NCBI RefSeq assembly: GCF_016756535.1 | Contig: NZ_AP023247.1 | Coordinates: 2,542,501 to 2,606,500 of the forward strand | Origin: Mesorhizobium sp. 131-2-1 | GTDB lineage: Bacteria > Pseudomonadota > Alphaproteobacteria > Rhizobiales > Rhizobiaceae | Reading direction: 5' to 3' | DNA: 64,000 bases | Part shown: piece after piece, positions 9,413-63,053 of the stretch | Layout: the number at the start of each line of letters is the position of its first letter | Position numbering within the stretch: the stretch's first letter is position 1 | Notes under the pieces: generated by a model | What the model was told of the DNA's origin: nothing | Database searches by the model: none | The model's input: the letters and a program-made list of their open reading frames with translations, nothing else | Made by a program: the position numbers and the translations under genes

Positions 9413-10420
9413 GGCTCCGCTTCTGGTCGTCAAGGATCTCAGCGTGTCGTTCCGCGGCGACGAAGGGCTGGTACGGGCGGTCGGCGGCGTCTCGTTCAGC
9501 GTCGAGCGGCGCGAGATTGTCGGGGTGGTGGGTGAGTCCGGCTCGGGCAAGAGCCAGACCCTGCTCGCCATCATGGGCCTGATCAACAGCCCCAATGCCA
9601 TCGTCTCCGGCTCGATCCGTTTCATGGGGCAGGAGCTGGTCGGCCTCAACCGGCGTGCGCTCGACGCCATTCGCGGCCGCCGGATCGCGATGATCTTCCA
9701 GGACCCGATGTCGGCACTGACGCCGGTGCACACGATCGGCAACCAGATCGGCGAGCAGGTGCGGGCCCATGAGAAAGCTTCGGCGCGCGCGGCGCGGGCG
9801 AGGGCGGTGCAACTGCTGGACGCCGTCGGCATCGCCAATCCGGGGCGAGTGGTCGATGCCTATCCGCACCAGCTGTCCGGCGGCATGCGCCAGCGCGCGG
9901 TGATCGCCATGGCGCTGTCCTGCAATCCGGCGCTGCTGGTCGCCGACGAGCCGACCACGGCCCTCGACGTCACCGTGCAGGCGCAGATCCTCGACCTGAT
10001 CGGGCGGCTGCGCGACGAGTTCGGCTCGTCGGTGATCCTGGTCACGCATGATCTCGGCGTCGTCGCCGAAGTCGCCGACCGGGTGCTGGTCATGTATGGC
10101 GGACGCTTCGTCGAGGAAGGCGGCAAGACCAGCGTGTTCCGCGCGCCGCTGCATCCCTACACATGGGGTCTGTTCGGCTCGATCCCGCCGATCGACGGCG
10201 CCCGCCCGGCCCGGCTCGCCGCCATCCCGGGGGCGCCGCCCTCGCTCTCCAACCTGCCGAAAGGCTGCGCCTTCGGTCCGCGCTGCGCCTACCGTCACGA
10301 GGCCTGCCTGACCCTGCCGCCGCCCATGGAGGGCAACGAGCATCGCGCCGCTTGCGTGTTGCCGGAGGCGCGGCGCAGGGAGATCAACATCCGCACGACC
10401 GCCGGCGTGGAGATGCGATC

Positions 10421-10424
<4 letters not shown>
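9402..10424 (+). CDS. Oligopeptide ABC transporter ATP-binding protein (DppD-like)
   Basis: 340 residues. Walker A GESGSGKS (about 44-51), Q-loop FQDPMSAL, signature LSGGM, Walker B LLVADEPTTALD and the H-loop THDLG are all present. The C-terminal oligopeptide-transporter domain has the Cys-rich pattern GCAFGPRCAYRHEAC, which in this subfamily can hold an iron-sulfur cluster. It hydrolyses ATP on the cytoplasmic face to drive uptake, as a heterodimer with the next product. The start overlaps the permease gene by 11 bases. Confidence 0.93.
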
Positions 10425-11413
<989 letters not shown>

Positions 11414-53909: not shown

Positions 53910-54635
53910 ATGGCCCGTCGCGTTGCGCAGCTTACTCCCGGCACGGGCAAGCCCGAGCAGATCGCGACAGTGCTGGAGCATGAGATCCGCTCCGGCGTGC
54001 TGGGCTTCGGCGACCGCCTGCAGAGCGAGAACGAGCTCGTCCAGCGCTTCTCCGTCAGCCGCAACACGGTCCGCAAGGGGCTGGAAGAACTGTCGAGCCG
54101 GGGTTTGATCACCACCAGGGTCGGCATCGGCTCCTTCGTCACCTTCGACGGCATGCCGGTCGATGACGCCATCGGCTGGTCGCGGGCGCTCGCCAATGCC
54201 GGCGCCAATGCCGAGACGCGCACGCTGCGGCTCGAAGTCATCGAGGACGCAGACCTCGCCGCCAGGCTCGGCGTCGACAATCCAGCCTTCATCGCCGTCG
54301 ATCGCGTTCGCAGCAATGCCGTTGACGGCCACGCCATCTCGATCGAGCGCAGCCGCCTGCCGCTATCGCCGGAACTGGAAGACGTGCCGTTGCGCGGCCT
54401 GCGCGAAGGCTCGCTGCACCAGACTTTGCGCGGGGCGGGGCTCGTTCCCGATCATGGCGAGGAATGGGTCGACATCGAGATGCTGAGTGCCGAGGACGCC
54501 ACCATCCTAGACTGCGCGCCGGGCACGCCGTTCCTGCGCACGCGGCGCCTGACGCGCGCTGCCGACGGCCGCGCCATCGAATTCGTCACCAGCCTGCTCA
54601 ATCCGGCGCATTTCGCCCTTCATCTGGAGTTTTGA
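53910..54635 (+). CDS. GntR family regulator (HutC/UTRA subfamily)
   Basis: 241 residues. The winged helix (about 10-78) contains LQSENELVQRFSVSRNTVRK and the UTRA ligand domain (about 95-235) the RVRSNAVDGHAISIERSRLP stretch. HutC-type regulators respond to small metabolites such as urocanate, sugars or nucleosides. It starts an operon: the ADP-ribosylglycohydrolase gene follows after one base, then a PfkB kinase and a Pot-type transporter. It is therefore probably the local repressor of this uptake and breakdown operon. Confidence 0.92.
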   Translation: MARRVAQLTPGTGKPEQIATVLEHEIRSGVLGFGDRLQSENELVQRFSVSRNTVRKGLEELSSRGLITTRVGIGSFVTFDGMPVDDAIGWSRALANAGANAETRTLRLEVIEDADLAARLGVDNPAFIAVDRVRSNAVDGHAISIERSRLPLSPELEDVPLRGLREGSLHQTLRGAGLVPDHGEEWVDIEMLSAEDATILDCAPGTPFLRTRRLTRAADGRAIEFVTSLLNPAHFALHLEF

Positions 54636-54636
54636 G

Positions 54637-55674
54637 ATGACGGACACGGCCGGGATGATCGACCGGGCGACAAGCGCGCTCATCGGCGGCGCGCTTGGCG
54701 ACGCGCTGGGCATGCCCACGCAGCTCTTGTCGCCCGACCGCATCGCCGCGCTCTACGGTCATGTCGAGGATTTCGTCGCGCCCGCCGCCGACCATCCGGT
54801 GTCAAAGGGCCTAGTTGCCGGCACCATTACCGACGATACGGAACAGGCGCTGCTGCTCGGCCGCATCTTGATCGAGTCCGGCAAGCGCTTCGATCATGCG
54901 CGCTGGGTCAACGCGCTGCTCGATTGGGAGCGCGAGGTAAAGGCGCGGGGCAGCTACGATCTACTCGGCCCGTCGACCAAGCGCGCCATCGACGCCATCA
55001 ATGGCGGCGTCCCGCCCGAGGAAGCCGGCAGCGGCGGCGACACCAATGGCGCGGCGATGCGCATCGCGCCGGTCGGCATCATGATGCCGCTGGCTCCGCT
55101 CGACGTGCTGGTCGCCAAGGTGGCGGAAACCTGTCGTGCCACGCACAACACCTCGATCGCCATTGCCTCGGCTGCAGCGGTCGCGGCGGCAGTCAGCAGC
55201 GGAGTCTCAGGCGCAGACTGGCGCGCGGCTTGCGAGCGCGCCGTGATGGCAGCGCGGCTCGGAGCAACGCTCGGGCACTGGGTCACCGGCGGCGATATCG
55301 CCACGCGGATCGCCTGGGCGCAGGACCTCGTGCGCGGCAAGACGGAGAAAGAGGCGATCAGGCTGATTGTCGATCTGGTCGGTACCGGCGTCGCCAGCCA
55401 GGAATCCGTTCCGGCGGCGTTTGCCGTGCTGGAGGTTGCGCAAGGCGATCCCTGGCGGGCCGCCGTCATCAGCGCCAATCTCGGCGGCGACACCGACACG
55501 ATCGGCGCCATCGCCGCCGGCATGGCTGGGGCCGCGGCCGGCCTGTCGCGCCTGCCGCAGGATCGCATCGCGAAGTTGCACGGCATCGATCTCACCGAGG
55601 TTCGCGTGCTGGCCGCCGATCTCGTCGCGGCGCGGCAGGCGAAGATCCGCTCCGGCAAGGAGGCAGCCGCATGA
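54637..55674 (+). CDS. ADP-ribosylglycohydrolase family protein
   Basis: 345 residues, all-helical DraG/ARH fold. The dinuclear magnesium site is visible as TITDDTEQ (about 65-72), GGDTNGAAMRIAP and the late GGDTDTIGAIAAGMAGA. The family removes ADP-ribose from proteins or small molecules, or hydrolyses related N-ribosyl bonds. Here it is inside an operon with a PfkB kinase and an importer rather than with a nitrogenase regulator, which argues for a small-molecule substrate. The kinase start overlaps its stop (ATGA). Confidence 0.9.
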   Translation: MTDTAGMIDRATSALIGGALGDALGMPTQLLSPDRIAALYGHVEDFVAPAADHPVSKGLVAGTITDDTEQALLLGRILIESGKRFDHARWVNALLDWEREVKARGSYDLLGPSTKRAIDAINGGVPPEEAGSGGDTNGAAMRIAPVGIMMPLAPLDVLVAKVAETCRATHNTSIAIASAAAVAAAVSSGVSGADWRAACERAVMAARLGATLGHWVTGGDIATRIAWAQDLVRGKTEKEAIRLIVDLVGTGVASQESVPAAFAVLEVAQGDPWRAAVISANLGGDTDTIGAIAAGMAGAAAGLSRLPQDRIAKLHGIDLTEVRVLAADLVAARQAKIRSGKEAAA

Positions 55675-56645
55675 ACGGACGGCTCGTCCATGTCGGCAGC
55701 GCGGTGGTGGACTATGTCTACCGCATCGACGCCTTGCCGGCGCCGGGCACGGAAAAGACCGCGTCGAGCTATGCACGGGTTGCCGGGGGCGGCTTCAACA
55801 TGATGGTCGCGGCGCGCCGCACCGGCATGACAGTGGTGTACGGCGGGCAGCTCGGCACCGGTCCTGACGGTGACTTCCTACGCGCCGCCTTCGCTGCCGA
55901 AGGCATCAGGACGCTGACGCCGCCGTCGCCGTTGATGGACAGCGGCAATTGCGTCGCCATGATCAGTGGCGACGCCGAACGGACCTTCGTCTCCTGGCCG
56001 GGCGCCGAGAGCCGGCTCACCCTCGACATGATGGCTCCCGTCAAGGTGACGCCTGGCGACTGGGTGTTCGCGTCAGGCTATACGCTCAGCTATCCCGGCA
56101 GCCGCGATGCGCTCGCCGACTGGATCGAGGCGTTGCCTGCGGAAATTGCTTTCGTCTTCGATCCGACGCCGGTGATAGCCGAGATTCCGCGCCCGGTTCT
56201 GGACAGGGTGCTGGCGCGCACGACCTGGCTGAGCTGCAACACCAACGAGGCGGCAGAGATCGCAGGCGCCGGCGATGCGCAGACGGTGGCGATCCGGCTG
56301 CTCGCCAATCACTGTCCGAAAGCGGAAGGCGTCGTCATCCGCGCCGGCGCGCAAGGCTGCCTGGTGCGGCTGGCCGAAGGCGGCATAAGGGTCATACCCG
56401 GCTTCGAGGTCGACGCGATCGACACCAACGGTGCCGGCGATACCCATATCGGCGCCTTCGTCAGCGCCCTGTCGCGCGGCATGCTGCCTTGCGAAGCGGC
56501 CCGCTATGCCAACGCGGCGGCGGCCCTTTCCGTCACCCGCCACGGCGGCTCGTCGGCGCCGTCCGATGAAGAAATCCAGCAATTCCTTGCCCTTCGCGAT
56601 CAAGCGGCGATCGCACAGGACCGGGAACAAGAGGCCACAACTTAA
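55671..56645 (+). CDS. PfkB family carbohydrate/nucleoside kinase
   Basis: 324 residues from ATG 55671; longer frames are inside the upstream gene. VGSAVVDYVYRIDALPAPG and AGGGFNMMVAARRTGM are the N-terminal PfkB blocks, and DTNGAGDTHIGAFVSAL carries the catalytic Asp. It phosphorylates a sugar or nucleoside. Coupled to an ADP-ribosylglycohydrolase, it could phosphorylate the ribose or ribosyl product released. GNxA-type nucleoside specificity cannot be read. The transporter receptor gene follows after 39 bases. Confidence 0.88.
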   Translation: MNGRLVHVGSAVVDYVYRIDALPAPGTEKTASSYARVAGGGFNMMVAARRTGMTVVYGGQLGTGPDGDFLRAAFAAEGIRTLTPPSPLMDSGNCVAMISGDAERTFVSWPGAESRLTLDMMAPVKVTPGDWVFASGYTLSYPGSRDALADWIEALPAEIAFVFDPTPVIAEIPRPVLDRVLARTTWLSCNTNEAAEIAGAGDAQTVAIRLLANHCPKAEGVVIRAGAQGCLVRLAEGGIRVIPGFEVDAIDTNGAGDTHIGAFVSALSRGMLPCEAARYANAAAALSVTRHGGSSAPSDEEIQQFLALRDQAAIAQDREQEATT

Positions 56646-56684
56646 CAAGCCCGCAAACCGGGCGAACAATGAGAGGAAGAAAAC

Positions 56685-57746
56685 ATGCGCGTGCCCAGAC
56701 TGACCGCTTTTCTGACGGCGACAGCCGTCTTCGCTTCGACATTCACCCTCGCCGCCAATGCCGGCGAAGTGCACGTGCTCAACTGGAAGGGCTACGGCGC
56801 CGACGAGCCGTGGGCGATCGCCGCCTTCGAGAAGGCGACCGGCAACAAGGTGGTCAACGACTTCTTCAACTCCGAACAGGAAATGCTGACGAAGCTCAGG
56901 ACCAATCCCGGCCTCTACGACGTCGTCATGATCAATGCCGCCTTCAACGACCAGGCGATGGCCGGCAAGCTGATCCAGCCGATCGACGTATCGAAGCTTC
57001 CCAACTACGCCGACATCAGCAAGGACAAAGCCGGCTCACCGATGCTCAACCATGACGGCAAGGTTTATGGCGTGCCGTGGGTCTGGGGCCTGACCGCACT
57101 GGCCATCAACGAGAAGTCGTTCGACAAGCCGCCGACGAGCATCGCCGAGATGTGGGACCCGGCGCACAAGGGCCGCGTCATCATCCGCGACGACGCCGTC
57201 GAGGCGGTGCAGTTCGGCGCCATTGCCAGCGGCCAGAACATCAACGACATCAAGGATATGGAAGCGGTCAAGACGAAGCTCACCTCGCTGATGCCGCAGA
57301 TCAAGACCTTCTGGAGCTCGGAGAACGACTGGAACCAGATGGTCGCCTCCAACCAGATCGACATCGGCACCTACTGGAGCGGTTCGGCCGACCGCGCCAA
57401 GACGCATTTCAAGCTGCCGGTCTCACTGGTCATCCCGCAGGAAGGCGCTGTCGCCTGGCTCGATGCCTTCTCGATCCCGGCCGGCTCCAAGAATGTCGAG
57501 GGCGCCGAAGCCTTCATCAACTACATGATCGATCCAAAATTCTACGTCGAATGGGTCACCAAGGTCGGCGCGCCGGTTTCGGCCAACACCAAGGCGGTCG
57601 AGGCGCTGCCCGAGGATGCCTTCAACCGCAAGGTCATGGGCGATCCCGAGGTCGCCAAGCGCATCCAGTTCCAGGCGCCGGTCACCGACGAGCAGCGCGA
57701 GAAATACCTGGCGCTCTGGCAGGAGCTGAAGGTCGACGTGAAGTAG
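56685..57746 (+). CDS. Pot-type ABC transporter substrate-binding protein
   Basis: 353 residues with a signal peptide (MRVPRLTAFLTATAVFASTF, cleavage after AANA). The mature protein EVHVLNWKGYGADEPWAIAA is PotD-like, with VPWVWGLTALAINEKSF and SNQIDIGTYWSGSADRA. The second Pot-type receptor of the window and not closely like the one at 21133. The operon partners suggest that it binds a ribosylated compound or nucleoside-like solute rather than putrescine. A GAGAGGAAG ribosome site precedes the ATG. Confidence 0.91.
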   Translation: MRVPRLTAFLTATAVFASTFTLAANAGEVHVLNWKGYGADEPWAIAAFEKATGNKVVNDFFNSEQEMLTKLRTNPGLYDVVMINAAFNDQAMAGKLIQPIDVSKLPNYADISKDKAGSPMLNHDGKVYGVPWVWGLTALAINEKSFDKPPTSIAEMWDPAHKGRVIIRDDAVEAVQFGAIASGQNINDIKDMEAVKTKLTSLMPQIKTFWSSENDWNQMVASNQIDIGTYWSGSADRAKTHFKLPVSLVIPQEGAVAWLDAFSIPAGSKNVEGAEAFINYMIDPKFYVEWVTKVGAPVSANTKAVEALPEDAFNRKVMGDPEVAKRIQFQAPVTDEQREKYLALWQELKVDVK

Positions 57747-57774
57747 TCGGCGTCTTTCGGGGAGGAGAGGCAAA

Positions 57775-58644
57775 ATGGCCAACCAGCTTGCGATCGGTTC
57801 GCGCCGCGGACTGAAGCCGGCCCTGCCGCTTCTCCTTCCCGCCTATCTGTGGCTGACGGTGGCGATCTTCCTGCCGCTGTCGGCCATGGTCTTCTTCTCC
57901 TTCATGACCGACCTGCCGCTGGCCGGGAAGGAATGGGCGTTCACGCTCGACAACTACGCGGCCTTCTTCTCGCAGAGCCTTTATCTGACGCTTCTGCTCG
58001 CGTCGCTGCGGCTCGGCCTCGAGGTGACGCTGTGGTGCGTCGTCATCGGCTATCCGGCGGCCTATGTGCTGGCCAAGGTGCTGAAGGGGCGCAGCCGCGA
58101 GGCGATCTTCCTGCTGGTCATCCTGCCGTTCTGGTCGAACGGGCTGGTACGCATCTTCTCCTGGGCGATGGTGCTGCGCGAGGGCGGCATCCTCGACACG
58201 GCGCTCAACGCCGTGCTGCCGTTCAAGATCAATATCGACCTTATGTATTCCTATCCGGCCGTCATCATCGGCCTGGTGCACTCCTACGTGCCCTACATGG
58301 TGCTGACCTGCTACCTGACGCTGCAGGCGATCGACGATTCGCTGATCGAGGCGGGCCGATCGCTCGGAGCCTCGCGGCTGCAGGTGCTGAGGCGCGTGAT
58401 CATCCCGCTGTCAATGCCCGGACTGGTGGCAGGTGCGGCGCTGATCTTCGTGCCGGTCGTCGGCTCCTTCATGGAGCCGCGCATCCTCGGCGGCCGCACC
58501 GGCACCTTCTACGGCACGGTGATCGAGGATCAGTTCGTCGCCGTCTTCAACTGGCCGCTGGGCGCGGCGTTGTCCTTCATCCTGCTTGCCGTGGTGCTGG
58601 TGATCCTGGCGGCGGTATCGCCGGTGTTGAGGAGGGCCGCCTGA
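57775..58644 (+). CDS. Pot-type ABC transporter permease (PotB-like)
   Basis: 289 residues, six membrane segments, the first at about 16-40. EAA loop QAIDDSLIEAGRSLGASRLQ (about residues 183-202). GGGGAGGAGAGG precedes the start. It pairs with the next gene product, whose start overlaps its stop (TGATG), to form the importer channel. Confidence 0.91.
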   Translation: MANQLAIGSRRGLKPALPLLLPAYLWLTVAIFLPLSAMVFFSFMTDLPLAGKEWAFTLDNYAAFFSQSLYLTLLLASLRLGLEVTLWCVVIGYPAAYVLAKVLKGRSREAIFLLVILPFWSNGLVRIFSWAMVLREGGILDTALNAVLPFKINIDLMYSYPAVIIGLVHSYVPYMVLTCYLTLQAIDDSLIEAGRSLGASRLQVLRRVIIPLSMPGLVAGAALIFVPVVGSFMEPRILGGRTGTFYGTVIEDQFVAVFNWPLGAALSFILLAVVLVILAAVSPVLRRAA

Positions 58645-59432
58645 TGGCGACGACACGCATTCTCGAATGGCTCGGCCGGTTCTACATCGTCCTGCTGCTC
58701 GCCTTCCTCTATCTGCCGATCATCATCATGGCGCTGATGTCGTTCAACGTCTCGCCCTTTTACCAATTGCCGCTCGAGTGGACGACGGACTGGTACGCCT
58801 CGCTCTGGCAGAACGACCAGCTGATTTCGGCGACGTGGAACAGCATCGAGATCGCGGTCATCACCACTATCATCTCGACCGTACTCGGCTCGGCCGCCTC
58901 GCTGGCGCTCTACCGCTATGAATTCCCAGGCAAGAAAGTCCTGCAGGCGCTGCTCTTCCCGCCGATCGCCATTCCGTGGCTGATCACCGGCACGGCGATG
59001 CTGATCTTCTTCTTCGGCATCGGCATCGGTCGCGGGCTCGTCGCCATCCTGCTCGGTCACGTTGCGCTGGCGCTGCCCTATGTGATCGTCGTCGTCTCGG
59101 CCCGGTTGCAGACCTTTGCGCAGGAGCTGGAGGAAGCGGCGCGCTCGCTCGGCGCCAACCAGTGGCAGGTGACGAACCGCGTCACGCTGCCCTGGATCAT
59201 GCCCGGCGTGATCGCCGGCGGACTGTTCGCCTTCGCCGTGTCGTTCGACCAGTTCGTGGTCTCCTATTTCCTATCGACGCCTGGCCAGACGACGCTGCCG
59301 GTCGAAATCTATGCGGCGATCCGCAAGGGCTTCACGCCCGAGATCAACGCGGTGTCGACGATCATCATCGTGGTGTCGATGGCGCTGATGCTGCTCACGG
59401 CGCGCTTCTTCAAATTCGGCGGAGAGAAATAA
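58644..59432 (+). CDS. Pot-type ABC transporter permease (PotC-like)
   Basis: 262 residues from ATG 58644. Six membrane segments, with FYIVLLLAFLYLPIIIMALM the first and the EAA loop QELEEAARSLGANQWQVTNR (about 154-173). It completes the channel with the PotB-like protein. The stop shares one base with the ATPase start (TAATG). Confidence 0.91.
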   Translation: MATTRILEWLGRFYIVLLLAFLYLPIIIMALMSFNVSPFYQLPLEWTTDWYASLWQNDQLISATWNSIEIAVITTIISTVLGSAASLALYRYEFPGKKVLQALLFPPIAIPWLITGTAMLIFFFGIGIGRGLVAILLGHVALALPYVIVVVSARLQTFAQELEEAARSLGANQWQVTNRVTLPWIMPGVIAGGLFAFAVSFDQFVVSYFLSTPGQTTLPVEIYAAIRKGFTPEINAVSTIIIVVSMALMLLTARFFKFGGEK

Positions 59433-60499
59433 TGGCAGGCGTCCAGGTAGCGAACGTCTCCCGCAGTTTTGGCGCGCACCGGGCGCTGGACGATGTCTCG
59501 ATCGATTTTGCCGATGGCGGTTTCTATGCGCTGCTCGGGCCGTCGGGCAGCGGCAAGACCACGCTGTTGCGGCAGATCGCGGGTTTCGATTTTCCGGACA
59601 CCGGCCGCATCGCCATCGGCGGCGAGAGCGTCGAGCGCGTGCCGGTCGAGAAGCGCCGCATCGGCATGGTGTTCCAGAACTATGCGCTTTTTCCGAATAT
59701 GAGCGTCGCCGACAATGTCGCCTTCGGCCTTTCGGTGCGCGGCGAGGCCAAGGCGAAAATCGCGACTGAGGTTCAGCGGGCGCTCGACCTCGTGCAGCTC
59801 GGCAAGCTCGGTGGCCGCCGGCCGCATCAGCTCTCCGGCGGCCAGCGGCAGCGCGTGGCGCTGGCGCGCGCCATCGTCACCAAGCCGCGCGTGCTCTTGC
59901 TCGATGAGCCGCTCGGCGCGCTCGACAAGGCGCTGCGCGTCGACATGCAGATCGAATTGAAGCGCATCCAGCGCGAAATCGGCATCACCACCATCTTCGT
60001 CACCCACGACCAGGAAGAGGCGCTGACGATGAGCGACCGCATCGGCATCCTGCGCGACGGCAGGCTGGTGCAGGAAGGCCCGCCTGAGGAGATCTACGAC
60101 CGGCCGCAAAGCGAGTTCGCCGCGACATTCCTCGGGGATGCCAACATCTTTCGCGGCGACGCCACCGGCAACGGGATCCGGTTGCCCGACGGCACGACGA
60201 TCAATGCCTCGTCAGGCCCCTCGTTGGCGGTCGGCGCCAAGGCAAGCTGCGCGGTGCGGCCGGAGCGCATCCAGATCTCTACCGGTTCCGGGAGGTCTGA
60301 GGCAGGCAATGCCAATACGCTCAAGGGACAGGTGTCCAAGCGCATCTTCGCCGGCAACAACAGCACCTATTTCGTCGAGCGGGACGGTCAGACGCTGAAG
60401 GTGATCGTGCAAAACACCGGTGCCGAAAGGCCGGCTGAAGGTCAGCCGGTGGTGCTCAGCTGGTCGCCGGACAGTACTGTGCTGATCGCGGCGGGCTAA
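59432..60499 (+). CDS. Pot-type ABC transporter ATP-binding protein
   Basis: 355 residues. Walker A GPSGSGKTT, Q-loop FQNYALFPNMSV, signature LSGGQ, Walker B LLLDEPLGALD and H-loop THDQEE, followed by a TOBE-type C-terminal domain (about 240-350). It energises the importer and is the last gene of the GntR-ARH-kinase-transporter operon. The 74 bases to the convergent lyase gene hold no clear terminator. Confidence 0.93.
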   Translation: MAGVQVANVSRSFGAHRALDDVSIDFADGGFYALLGPSGSGKTTLLRQIAGFDFPDTGRIAIGGESVERVPVEKRRIGMVFQNYALFPNMSVADNVAFGLSVRGEAKAKIATEVQRALDLVQLGKLGGRRPHQLSGGQRQRVALARAIVTKPRVLLLDEPLGALDKALRVDMQIELKRIQREIGITTIFVTHDQEEALTMSDRIGILRDGRLVQEGPPEEIYDRPQSEFAATFLGDANIFRGDATGNGIRLPDGTTINASSGPSLAVGAKASCAVRPERIQISTGSGRSEAGNANTLKGQVSKRIFAGNNSTYFVERDGQTLKVIVQNTGAERPAEGQPVVLSWSPDSTVLIAAG

Positions 60500-60573: not shown

Positions 60574-62055
60574 TCAGGCCTGCCATGAGCCGTCGGCGAG
60601 CGCGGCGTGGAGCGCGTTGGCGTTGGCCCCGAGCGGCCTGTCTTCCTTGAGCGCCGGCACGTGCGTGCGGACAGCCGCATGGATGACACCCGTTGCCGGC
60701 GCCAGCGCGATCCCTTCACGCAGGTCAACGGCCTGGGCCGCCGCCATCAGCTCCAGGGCGATGAGGCGTCGCCACAGCACGATCATGTCTGCGCTTTTCG
60801 AAACCGCCAGAAGCGTTTGCGTTGCGTGATCCTCAACGCCTTCGGAGACCGGAATATAGTCGAGCATCACGGGATTGGCTTTGTGGCGGATGGCGGCCAG
60901 GATCGCCGCAACAGTCTTCTGCAGAGGCACGAAGCCGGCGGAGGCGCCGCCGACCGGCGACAGGTATTTGGGCAGGCCGTTGCGGCCCGAGCCGGTGAGC
61001 TGGATGAAGCGAGCGGCAGAGGCAGCCGCGCATTGAGCGATTGCCAGGCCAAGCGTCTCGAAGGCCAGCGCCAGCGATGCGGTGTGAAAATTGCCGGTCG
61101 ACATCACCAACGCATCATCAACGAGCACCAGCGGGTTGTCCGCGGCGGCGTTGAGCTCGATCTCGACCGCCAGCCTGGCATGATCGATCGCCTGGATCAG
61201 CGCTCCGTGGATGGAGGGCATGCAGCGGATCGACAGCGGATCCTGTAAGGTCGTCGGCGTCGTTTCCCGGTCGCGCGCGAGCAGGTCGCGCAGCGTCCTT
61301 GCCGCCAGCAGCTGGCAGGCCGCAGGCCGCGCGACCTGCAGGCGCGGATCGAGGATGGTGCGGTTGGCCCCAAGCGCTTCCATGGTCAGTGCGCCGGCCT
61401 GTTGCTGTTGTTCCATCGCCGACAGCGCGTCGACAAGCGCCAATGCGCCGGTGCCGGTGGAGACCGCCGAAGCATTGATCAGCGACAAGCCGTCCTTCGG
61501 CGCCAGGCTGACCGGAGGGAGGCGCGCCATCATCAGCGCCTTGGCCGACGGCATGCGCCGGCTCTGGTAATCGGCGTCGCCTTCGCCGATCAGCGTGTGG
61601 GCGATCGCCGTCATCATCACCAGGTCGCCGGCGCCGATCGAGCCGAGCGCCGGCATCACCGGATGCACGCCCGCGTTGAGCGCTTCGACCAGCGCCGTGA
61701 ACACATGCGGAGACAGGCCGGAGCCGCCCGCTGAAAGCATGGCGATGCGGGCAAACATCACCGCCCGCACGAGCTGGATGGGCAATGCGTCACCCACCGC
61801 GGCGCCGCGCCCGTCGAGAAGCTGGCGCTGGAAGGCGCCGGCGTCGCCCTCGACGGCGGTGCCGAGGTTGGCGCCGAGCCCGGTGTTCAGCCCGTAGATC
61901 TGCTGGCCGGCGGCGGCAGCTTCATCGAGGACTTTGCGCGCCTTGGCCAGGTGTTCCATGACGGTGGGCGTGACCTCGACCTTGGCCGCATTGCGCGCGG
62001 CGGCCGCCACATCCTCGATGCTGACGCCGGCGCCGGTGAGGACGAGCGGGCTCAT
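60574..62055 (-). CDS. Histidine/aromatic ammonia-lyase homologue lacking the MIO serine
   Basis: 493 residues, full length for the HAL/PAL/TAL family and alignable throughout. The Ala-Ser-Gly triad that cyclises to the MIO cofactor is altered: the canonical GSVGASGDL reads GSIGAGDL (residues 138-145), a one-residue deletion removing Ser. The residue at the HAL His83 position is Arg83 and that at Tyr280 is Leu277, while Tyr54, Asn197, Gln274, Arg280, Phe326 and Glu411 (HAL Tyr53, Asn195, Gln277, Arg283, Phe329, Glu414) are kept. It is therefore unlikely to deaminate histidine by the MIO route. It overlaps an ornithine-cyclodeaminase-family gene (ATGA). A MIO-independent lyase is my preferred idea; an inactive paralogue is possible. 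Confidence 0.88.
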   Translation of the reverse strand: MSPLVLTGAGVSIEDVAAAARNAAKVEVTPTVMEHLAKARKVLDEAAAAGQQIYGLNTGLGANLGTAVEGDAGAFQRQLLDGRGAAVGDALPIQLVRAVMFARIAMLSAGGSGLSPHVFTALVEALNAGVHPVMPALGSIGAGDLVMMTAIAHTLIGEGDADYQSRRMPSAKALMMARLPPVSLAPKDGLSLINASAVSTGTGALALVDALSAMEQQQQAGALTMEALGANRTILDPRLQVARPAACQLLAARTLRDLLARDRETTPTTLQDPLSIRCMPSIHGALIQAIDHARLAVEIELNAAADNPLVLVDDALVMSTGNFHTASLALAFETLGLAIAQCAAASAARFIQLTGSGRNGLPKYLSPVGGASAGFVPLQKTVAAILAAIRHKANPVMLDYIPVSEGVEDHATQTLLAVSKSADMIVLWRRLIALELMAAAQAVDLREGIALAPATGVIHAAVRTHVPALKEDRPLGANANALHAALADGSWQA

Positions 62056-63053
62056 GCGAAGCGCAGCCTCTGGCCGATGCCTTGCGCGCCGGCCTTGGCC
62101 AGCATCGCCTTGCCGAGCGCGATGTCGGAGAGCGACAGGCCGCGATGCCAGAACAGGATCGTCTCGCCGTCACCCTGGCGGCCGGGCTTCAGGCCGGCGG
62201 CGATCTGGCCGAGCTCGGCATGCAGCGTCGCCTCGCTCAGCCGCCCGGTTTCGACATGGGCGCGCAGCGAGCCGAACTTGCCGCCTTTGCACTGGCCCCA
62301 GTCGTCGACGACGATCTTCCCCATGATGTCGGTCAGGGACAGCTCCACCGCGCTCATCGTGCCGTAGGGCACGACCAGCGCGCCCGGCTTGATCCATTCG
62401 GTCTTGAGCAAGGGTTGCGGCTCGTTGAGGCGGGAGGCCTCGACGACGATGTCGGCACCCGCGACGCAGCTCTTCCAGTCGGCAACCGCCGTGACTTTCT
62501 TGCCGAGGTCGGCCGACAGTTTCGCGGCGAAGCTGTTGCGGCTTTCAGGCCGGCGCGAATGGACGCGGATCTCGTCGAAGTCGAAGAGATGATCGAGCAG
62601 GCGCACATTCCAGTAGGCGGTGCCGCGCGCACCGATATGGCCGAGCACCTTCGATGTTTTCTTCGCAAGGTGCTTTGCGCCGATGGCGGTGACGGCGCCG
62701 GTGCGCATGCCGGTGATGACGGTGGCGTCGAGGATGGCGCGTGGCGTGCCGGTGCGCGGATCGAACAGATTGAGGATGCCGAACTCGGACGGCAGCCCGT
62801 GCAGGTAGTTGTCGACATAGTCGCCGACGATCTTGACGCCGGCCGCGTCGAGCGGCGCAACGTAGCCGCGCAAAACATTGAAATGGCCGTGGAAAGACGG
62901 GTCCGGCTCGAGATGGACGCGCGGCTCGATCACCGTCTGGCCATGGCCCTGGGCAACGAGGCCGGCCTCGACCGCGCCGATTATCTCGGCATCGGTCATC
63001 GCCAGCGCCTCGATGTCGAGGGCGTTGAGATAGTCGATATAGATGGGCTTCAT
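62052..63053 (-). CDS. Ornithine cyclodeaminase/mu-crystallin family protein
   Basis: 333 residues from ATG 63053, with AGAGGGA 8 bases upstream; a TTG six codons earlier is less likely. The family fold shows RTGAVTAIGAKHLAKK, the Rossmann motif LGHIGARGTAYWN and the active-site Asp in VVDDWGQCKGG. Members include ornithine cyclodeaminase, alanine dehydrogenase and ketimine reductases, all NAD(P)-dependent and acting on amino or imino acids. Its coupling to the MIO-less lyase suggests consecutive steps on one amino-acid-derived substrate. The glycine-rich loop is GARGTA rather than the commoner GTGxQA pattern. The 113 bases to the divergent MFS gene may hold both promoters. Confidence 0.88.
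   Translation of the reverse strand: MKPIYIDYLNALDIEALAMTDAEIIGAVEAGLVAQGHGQTVIEPRVHLEPDPSFHGHFNVLRGYVAPLDAAGVKIVGDYVDNYLHGLPSEFGILNLFDPRTGTPRAILDATVITGMRTGAVTAIGAKHLAKKTSKVLGHIGARGTAYWNVRLLDHLFDFDEIRVHSRRPESRNSFAAKLSADLGKKVTAVADWKSCVAGADIVVEASRLNEPQPLLKTEWIKPGALVVPYGTMSAVELSLTDIMGKIVVDDWGQCKGGKFGSLRAHVETGRLSEATLHAELGQIAAGLKPGRQGDGETILFWHRGLSLSDIALGKAMLAKAGAQGIGQRLRFA

Follow-up and report, generated by a model that had tools for sequence, protein, structure and literature searches.

The subject of this analysis is a pair of adjoining genes at the right end of a 64,000-nucleotide (64-kb) stretch of the 7.1-Mb genome of Mesorhizobium sp. 131-2-1 (contig NZ_AP023247.1, positions 2,542,501 to 2,606,500), which is called the window below. 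Both genes, and all features within them that are given here, lie on the minus strand. The first gene (62052..63053) encodes a 333-amino-acid protein of the ornithine-cyclodeaminase family (PF02423), abbreviated OCD throughout, and was defined by open reading frame (ORF), profile, and alignment. The second (60574..62055) encodes a 493-amino-acid lyase of family PF00221, which lacks the Ser that forms the 4-methylideneimidazole-5-one (MIO) cofactor and was assigned to what is termed here the Arg83 clade using ORF, profile, alignment, and tree. The OCD gene ends in the four bases with which the lyase gene begins (ATGA, 62052..62055), and the ORFs, strand, lengths, and overlap given in an earlier description made from the letters alone (the sequence-only reading) were all recovered. 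L-numbers designate the loci and G-numbers the genomes that were compared, G000 being the genome of the window.

The lyase was aligned with histidine ammonia-lyase (HAL; 1gkj). As the sequence-only reading had it, the two proteins align without a gap from the region of His83 to Ala142, after which the Ser of the Ala-Ser-Gly (ASG) triad is absent (GSIGA-GDL); the gap was placed at the Ala142-Gly143 junction (61627..61632; Ala142 codon 61630-61632, Gly143 codon 61627-61629). The replacement of His83 by Arg and of Tyr280 by Leu, also described previously, was found as Arg83 (61807..61809) and Leu274 (61234..61236), the latter being common to ergothionases. The Tyr, Asn, Gln, Arg, Phe, and Glu that had been listed as retained for substrate binding all match HAL residues, with Tyr54, Asn194, Gln271, Arg277, Phe323, and Glu408 (60832..60834) at the positions of Y53, N195, Q277, R283, F329, and E414. 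A further residue that had gone unmentioned, Lys380 (60916..60918), is present in ergothionases but in none of the 26 ASG-bearing lyases aligned, every one of which keeps His83 and Tyr280.

The missing Ser in the window lyase was confirmed as a real feature. The gap, together with the Arg, Leu, Lys, and Glu, was found in 120/120 relatives listed, which are the best 120 of 2496 scored matches, include the window protein, and are Mesorhizobium where named. Because all of them share the gap, a sequence error, which had been set down as one outcome that would overturn the description, is excluded. Conservation of the partner gene had been proposed as a check, and the OCD was found directly upstream of the lyase in 32/32 loci (31 named Mesorhizobium and one Hyphomicrobiales metagenome-assembled genome), at identities of 74-94% and with an overlap of ATGA in 31 and GTGA in one. 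Ratios of nonsynonymous to synonymous substitution rates (dN/dS) between the window pair and these 32 loci ranged from 0.08 to 0.25 for the lyase and from 0.06 to 0.13 for the OCD, so that the earlier statement of a full-length lyase without decay is borne out by purifying selection. Within the genus the pair is patchy, the lyase being present in 6/8 same-genus genomes listed. Among 27 relatives outside both Mesorhizobium and the ergothionase clade, a set that includes near-duplicates such as L014 and L066, the gap and the Glu at the Glu414 position were found in 27/27, Arg83 in 26/27, and the Lys in 24/27. Assembly error, gene decay, and chance were ruled out by the 120/120 conserved gap, the many independent loci, and the low dN/dS. 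Its relatives bear the NCBI-type name histidine ammonia-lyase, as would be expected if the window gene coded for an ordinary MIO enzyme whose sequence was wrongly assembled or had decayed; set against the shared gap, the independent loci, the dN/dS of 0.08-0.25, and a score of 362.4 bits on the NCBIfam hutH equivalog where the cut-off is 539, this explanation is highly improbable.

The closest match of the lyase in the PDB was ergothionase (6s7j; 235.3 bits, E 1.5e-68), barely ahead of a probable HAL (7tqr; 233.8 bits, E 4.1e-68). Ergothionase is a solved PF00221 enzyme that is described as lacking MIO (PMC13405746), and MIO-free chemistry in this family is already known from it. The Treponema denticola enzyme (6s7j/6s7q) has in common with the window lyase the PF00221 fold, the absence of the MIO Ser, Leu at the Tyr280 position, Lys at the Lys384 position, Glu at the Glu411/414 position, and membership in a joint clade. 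At about 30% identity, the window lyase differs from it in having Arg for His83, Asn for Ser195, and Ala for the Glu at the Ala142 position, in lying in a sister clade, and in being tied to the OCD. Among 120 listed relatives of the T. denticola enzyme, the Ser was missing in 120, and His83 was found in 120, Leu280 in 118, Lys at the Lys384 position in 115, Glu414 in 120, and Ser195 in 112. This ergothionase itself scored below the cut-off on hutH, and no ergothionase NCBIfam model was among its matches. HutH proteins (1gkm, 7tqr, and the one of the window's own genome, C1:4169385-4170758) share with the window lyase the fold and the Tyr53, Asn195, Gln277, Arg283, Phe329, and Glu414 positions; the window lyase differs from them in the lost MIO Ser, the replaced His83 and Tyr280, the gained Lys, and the hutH score below the cut-off.

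A tree of homologues with the same deletion against known lyases, ergothionase included, had been suggested as a check. In an unrooted tree of 49 lyases, which was built with the MIO columns omitted and has long branches, 29 ergothionase-type and Arg83-type rows fell on one side of a branch with support of 95/90; within this superclade the ergothionases were grouped at 100/99 without the window protein, and the Arg83 side, the window protein included, at 90/97. By sequence, the window lyase sits in the Arg83 clade, sister to the ergothionases and not inside them. On this tree, and on the residues Arg83, Asn, and Ala, which stand in place of His83, Ser195, and Glu, a place within the ergothionase clade proper was rejected. 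The link to ergothionase that had been put forward tentatively stands as kinship, with the loss of Ser, the Leu, and the Lys held in common, and is refined to that of a sister clade. The same kinship, with the shared Lys and Glu, would suit an enzyme acting on ergothioneine itself, in its thione form: a rhizobial ergothionase would then give thiourocanate, and the OCD or a luciferase-like monooxygenase (LLM) type enzyme would take the sulfur later. With the window lyase outside the ergothionase clade and His83, Ser195, and the Glu at the Ala142 position all replaced, this reading is unlikely.

The OCD scored 190.4 bits on PF02423, above the gathering score of 24, and below the cut-off on all 13 NCBIfam models of the family that it matched, which comprise equivalogs for ornithine cyclodeaminase, alanine dehydrogenase, EutC, and SbnB (best 177 bits against 409). 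In the alignment of 22 OCD sequences, 119 of the 333 residues were invariant, among them Arg45 (62919..62921), Lys74 (62832-62834), and Arg117 (62703-62705), which we take to be the anion-binding residues of the family. The closest solved relatives are an archaeal alanine dehydrogenase (1omo), a pyrroline-2-carboxylate reductase (6t3e), and an SbnB-like protein (4m54). With these and EutC, members of the OCD/mu-crystallin family, the window protein shares PF02423, the fold family as judged by sequence, and Arg45, Lys74, and Arg117; it differs from the known enzymes in falling below the cut-off of every NCBIfam model matched. It is 62-82% identical to homologues that adjoin quite different lyases, and by sequence the partner belongs to one tight subfamily. 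Of the cyclodeaminase-family partner in the sequence-only reading, the conserved PF02423 protein was upheld in 32/32 loci, and its role is refined: hydride transfer to a carbon of an imidazole is a better reading of the OCD than cyclodeaminase activity.

Co-occurrence was counted with the OCD taken as present at E values up to 1e-90. In a sample of 385 genomes of Alphaproteobacteria, the OCD was present in 10/10 genomes with an ASG-less lyase of the superclade against 17/375 others (Fisher 5e-13), and in a sample of 297 genomes of the order it was present in 9/9 against 10/288 (Fisher 2e-12), the genomes being mutually related and the class-sample cases belonging to six family codes. Motif sorting covered 30/31 lyase matches of the class sample (G329 was left out). 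Some lyases of this type fell outside the thresholds, in G400 of the class sample and in G070, G228, G247, G052, and G018 of the order sample, and surfaced when their OCD loci were opened. Outside these samples, an Arg83-type lyase (L122:10999-12543) and an OCD (9956-11002) with the ATGA overlap seen in Mesorhizobium were found on a plasmid of Streptomyces chartreusis, which suggests that the pair is transferred as a unit.

The neighbourhoods of the lyase and the OCD were then compared in other genomes. In Paraburkholderia (L120), one strand carries the OCD together with a urocanate hydratase and a lyase of the ergothionase type. This hydratase scored 967 bits on HutU (cut-off 375) and fell below the cut-off on the models for thiourocanate hydratase (688 against 930) and S-methyl thiourocanate hydratase (701 against 880), and the hydratase of L118 gave the same pattern, that of an ordinary HutU. 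Because the L120 hydratase is an ordinary HutU, urocanate must arise upstream of it. A thiourocanate hydratase as the next step was not supported, since the hydratases of L118 and L120 score as ordinary HutU and the window's own genome has one HutU-type protein. L120 does combine an ergothionase-type lyase with the same OCD, and two LLM flavin monooxygenases that could oxidise sulfur precede the OCD in L063-L065; both would be in keeping with ergothioneine itself as substrate. The sole HutU-type protein of the own genome is ordinary, so that the thiourocanate-hydratase route is not visible there.

In Comamonadaceae (L118), the OCD lies within a hutC-H-U ... D-I-F-G cluster. In L207, the Arg83-type lyase is overlapped by a HutG-like gene, which one further ORF separates from a truncated HutH-like gene at the edge; the OCD of this locus overlaps cysNC and is preceded by cysD, and the cysD-cysNC-OCD genes are convergent with the HutH-like, HutG-like, and lyase genes. 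The OCD adjoins a HutF-like gene at a contig end in L202, and HutU- and HutD-like pieces adjoin the lyase/OCD cluster in L132. All five regulators tested (L066, L067, L118, L119, and L121) passed the cut-off of the HutC equivalog TIGR02018. Putative YeiH-like exporters occur in the vicinity of L066, where the match passes the Pfam cut-off, and of L122, both being below the NCBIfam cut-off; L071 and L205 have further genes that resemble YeiH. The SsuA-like binding protein of L118 and the SfnG-like monooxygenase of L132 did not reach their cut-offs. The transporters vary in type (betaine, Opp, and ribose), those of the betaine type being found at L063-L067 and L132. The ergothioneine importer EgtU belongs to the same superfamily as the betaine-type transporters (PMC9732360). 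A PhnD-like protein (PF12974) stands beside the OCD or the lyase in L063, L064, L066, L067, L068, L118, L123, and L125. No signal peptide was visible by eye in eight such sequences, and among solved structures the L118 copy is closest to AioX (arsenite-binding) and ArrX (arsenate-binding); the protein may, as a guess, be a cytoplasmic binder of an oxyanion, perhaps sulfite. No PhnD-like relative was found in the window's own genome with the L066 protein as query.

The reading favoured here, given somewhat less than an even chance, is that the lyase would act on ergothioneine sulfonate, or a like histidine betaine bearing sulfur at C2, and that the OCD would remove this sulfur reductively to leave urocanate. 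The substrate, leaving groups, order of steps, and mechanism are inferred from residues, clade, and neighbours, and the 'unusual amino acid, betaine or imino acid' of the sequence-only reading is narrowed in this way to a histidine betaine with sulfur at C2. The lyase would be an MIO-free C-N lyase of the ergothionase superclade, with ergothioneine sulfonate as its most likely substrate, and would eliminate trimethylamine to give 2-sulfo-urocanate. By analogy with ergothionase, the sulfur at C2 would acidify the side-chain proton through the ring and so allow elimination without MIO. Maurer et al. (2019) are said to have assigned catalytic roles to Lys384 and Glu411 of ergothionase and to have reported activity on ergothioneine sulfonate. 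The retention of the Lys and Glu suggests an ergothionase-like activation of the ring in the window lyase, with Lys380 and Glu408 as the predicted residues. Position 83 of HAL belongs to the ring-recognition site, where specificity is set between HAL and tyrosine ammonia-lyase, and Arg83 would therefore suit an anionic substituent on the far side of the ring, pairing with the sulfonate at C2. The OCD, presumably co-translated with the lyase, would pass a hydride from NAD(P)H to the imidazole C2 and expel sulfite. Relatives of the OCD reduce ketimine carboxylates, in which a C=N carbon bears an anion; the C2 of an imidazole-2-sulfonate may be regarded as such a carbon, and sulfite would be a fair leaving group. 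The urocanate so formed would be handed to the ordinary hut pathway, encoded at another place in the genome, which fits the ordinary HutU and the HutC found as neighbours in other loci.

The pair may instead serve another N-substituted amino acid, such as hercynine, the betaine of tryptophan or tyrosine, or an N-alkyl (opine-like) histidine, with the lyase freeing the amine and the OCD oxidising an amine or cleaving an N-alkyl bond in the manner of its alanine dehydrogenase and opine-type relatives. The solved structures closest to the OCD (1omo, 6t3e, and 4m54) agree with such a role, as do the varied transporters; an OCD beside an ASG-bearing HutH, as in L118 and L125, would be consistent with histidine as the product, and the coenzyme A (CoA) genes of L066 would fit an acrylate that is not an imidazole. 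MIO-free elimination beside an unactivated ring is chemically hard by the established mechanism, however, and the ergothionase-like Lys and Glu are kept, while sulfur-linked genes are among the neighbours, and cysD-cysNC-OCD occurs in L207. This alternative is accordingly rated as doubtful, with a modest share of the probability.

Several observations weigh against ergothioneine sulfonate and a desulfurising OCD. Among the lyases, L100 is a member of the Arg83 clade with His at position 83, and L093, L095, and L102 (family code f86; Arg83 side) have His or Leu at the position of the Lys. The genomes of the latter three (G631, G555, and G330, respectively) carry an OCD elsewhere. The adjacency of the OCD to an ASG-bearing HutH in L118 and L125 counts here also, as does the recognition of no lyase in the OCD loci L119, L121, and L123, the last of which carries Ldh- and MR_MLE-type enzymes in its place. 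In 25/34 further OCD loci, neither a hut gene nor an ASG-less lyase was recognised within the stretch compared, and no common theme was found among the OCD neighbours of the lyase-poor loci (WD40/caspase-like proteins, an Opp-type binding protein, a fatty acid desaturase, a glycosyltransferase, an amino acid permease, and proteins of the major facilitator superfamily and the AI-2E type). Some of these lyase-poor genomes have an ASG-less lyase on another stretch (G366, G382, G571, G585, G555, G330, and G631). L066 and L071 carry CoA-transferase, short-chain dehydrogenase/reductase, and MaoC-like genes, suited to beta-oxidation of an acrylate. The five regulators that passed TIGR02018 fell below the cut-off of a second HutC model, the sulfur-gene matches were below curated NCBIfam cut-offs, and none of these hut, sulfur, or betaine-type transporter genes stands beside the window pair itself.

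A paper by Yan, Huang, and Zhang (ACS Catal 2022), known by its title, reportedly deals with an ergothioneine sulfonate catabolic pathway in Agrobacterium radiobacter, and thus names the substrate proposed here in a related bacterial group. It is about as likely as not to describe a member of the Arg83 lyase clade, and may contain a lyase and OCD of the window type already. A literature search recognised no paper on the pair of Arg83-type lyase and OCD, the texts of Yan et al. 2022 and Maurer et al. 2019 being outside its reach. Three additions can be defended here: the Arg83 clade, the link of that clade to a single OCD subfamily, and the neighbouring hut and sulfur genes. A bolder proposal is that the OCD subfamily is an unreported NAD(P)H-dependent desulfonase, which places hydride at C2 and takes sulfite off an imidazole-2-sulfonate, that the Arg83 lyases are a distinct MIO-free class, and that rhizobia and others draw nitrogen, carbon, and sulfur from oxidised ergothioneine via the ordinary hut pathway; it is improbable as a whole. 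If the favoured reading were true, a large group of proteins annotated as histidine ammonia-lyase would be lyases that act without MIO on histidine betaines carrying sulfur, and a subfamily of OCDs annotated as alanine dehydrogenase or ornithine cyclodeaminase would desulfurise a heteroaromatic ring without metal or oxygen. Ergothioneine or its oxidised form would gain a fate in plant-associated soil bacteria, and many annotations would be corrected. The natural series of ASG lyases, ergothionases, and Arg83 lyases would offer a test of amine elimination without MIO in one fold.

The window's own genome was searched for related genes. HutH, a single ordinary HutU, and one HutC above its cut-off lie together in one place. 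No EgtD-type methyltransferase over the Pfam cut-off was found in the genome, with one match below it. Own synthesis of ergothioneine via such a methyltransferase was rejected for want of a match over that cut-off; the presence of the hut genes without an EgtD over the cut-off suits scavenging of ergothioneine. The ASG triad is missing in 3/4 PF00221 members of the genome, the further two being L002 (C1:1160599-1161963, GSAGYLTH) and L004/L005 (C1:3219754-3221076, GQGGAGEIL). Both L002 and L004 lie outside the ergothionase/Arg83 clade in the tree, and L004 also has a one-residue gap; more than one loss of the Ser is therefore probable. ASG-less lyases unlike either clade were also seen near an OCD in L186:13445-16524 (GMGMDGET and ALGMDGEM in tandem) and L188:7280-8842 (GNGGAGEV).

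Within the window, a cluster convergent with the pair (53910-60499) comprises a GntR/UTRA regulator, an ADP-ribosylglycohydrolase, an ORF for a PfkB-like kinase whose fold was named by eye, and a PotD-type ATP-binding cassette transporter. This cluster was set aside as the pair's own transporter, because its ATPase was found at an identity of at least 90% in 13/32 loci, within the flanks compared. LLM and betaine-binding relatives of the L064 genes exist in the own genome, away from the pair, and the best LLM match adjoins genes of the urate-oxidase and xanthine-dehydrogenase types. An LLM monooxygenase that is 64-68% like that of the L064 operon is split over two frames in L085:7921-10124 (G000:C1 about 444400-446600), among genes of purine-catabolism type.

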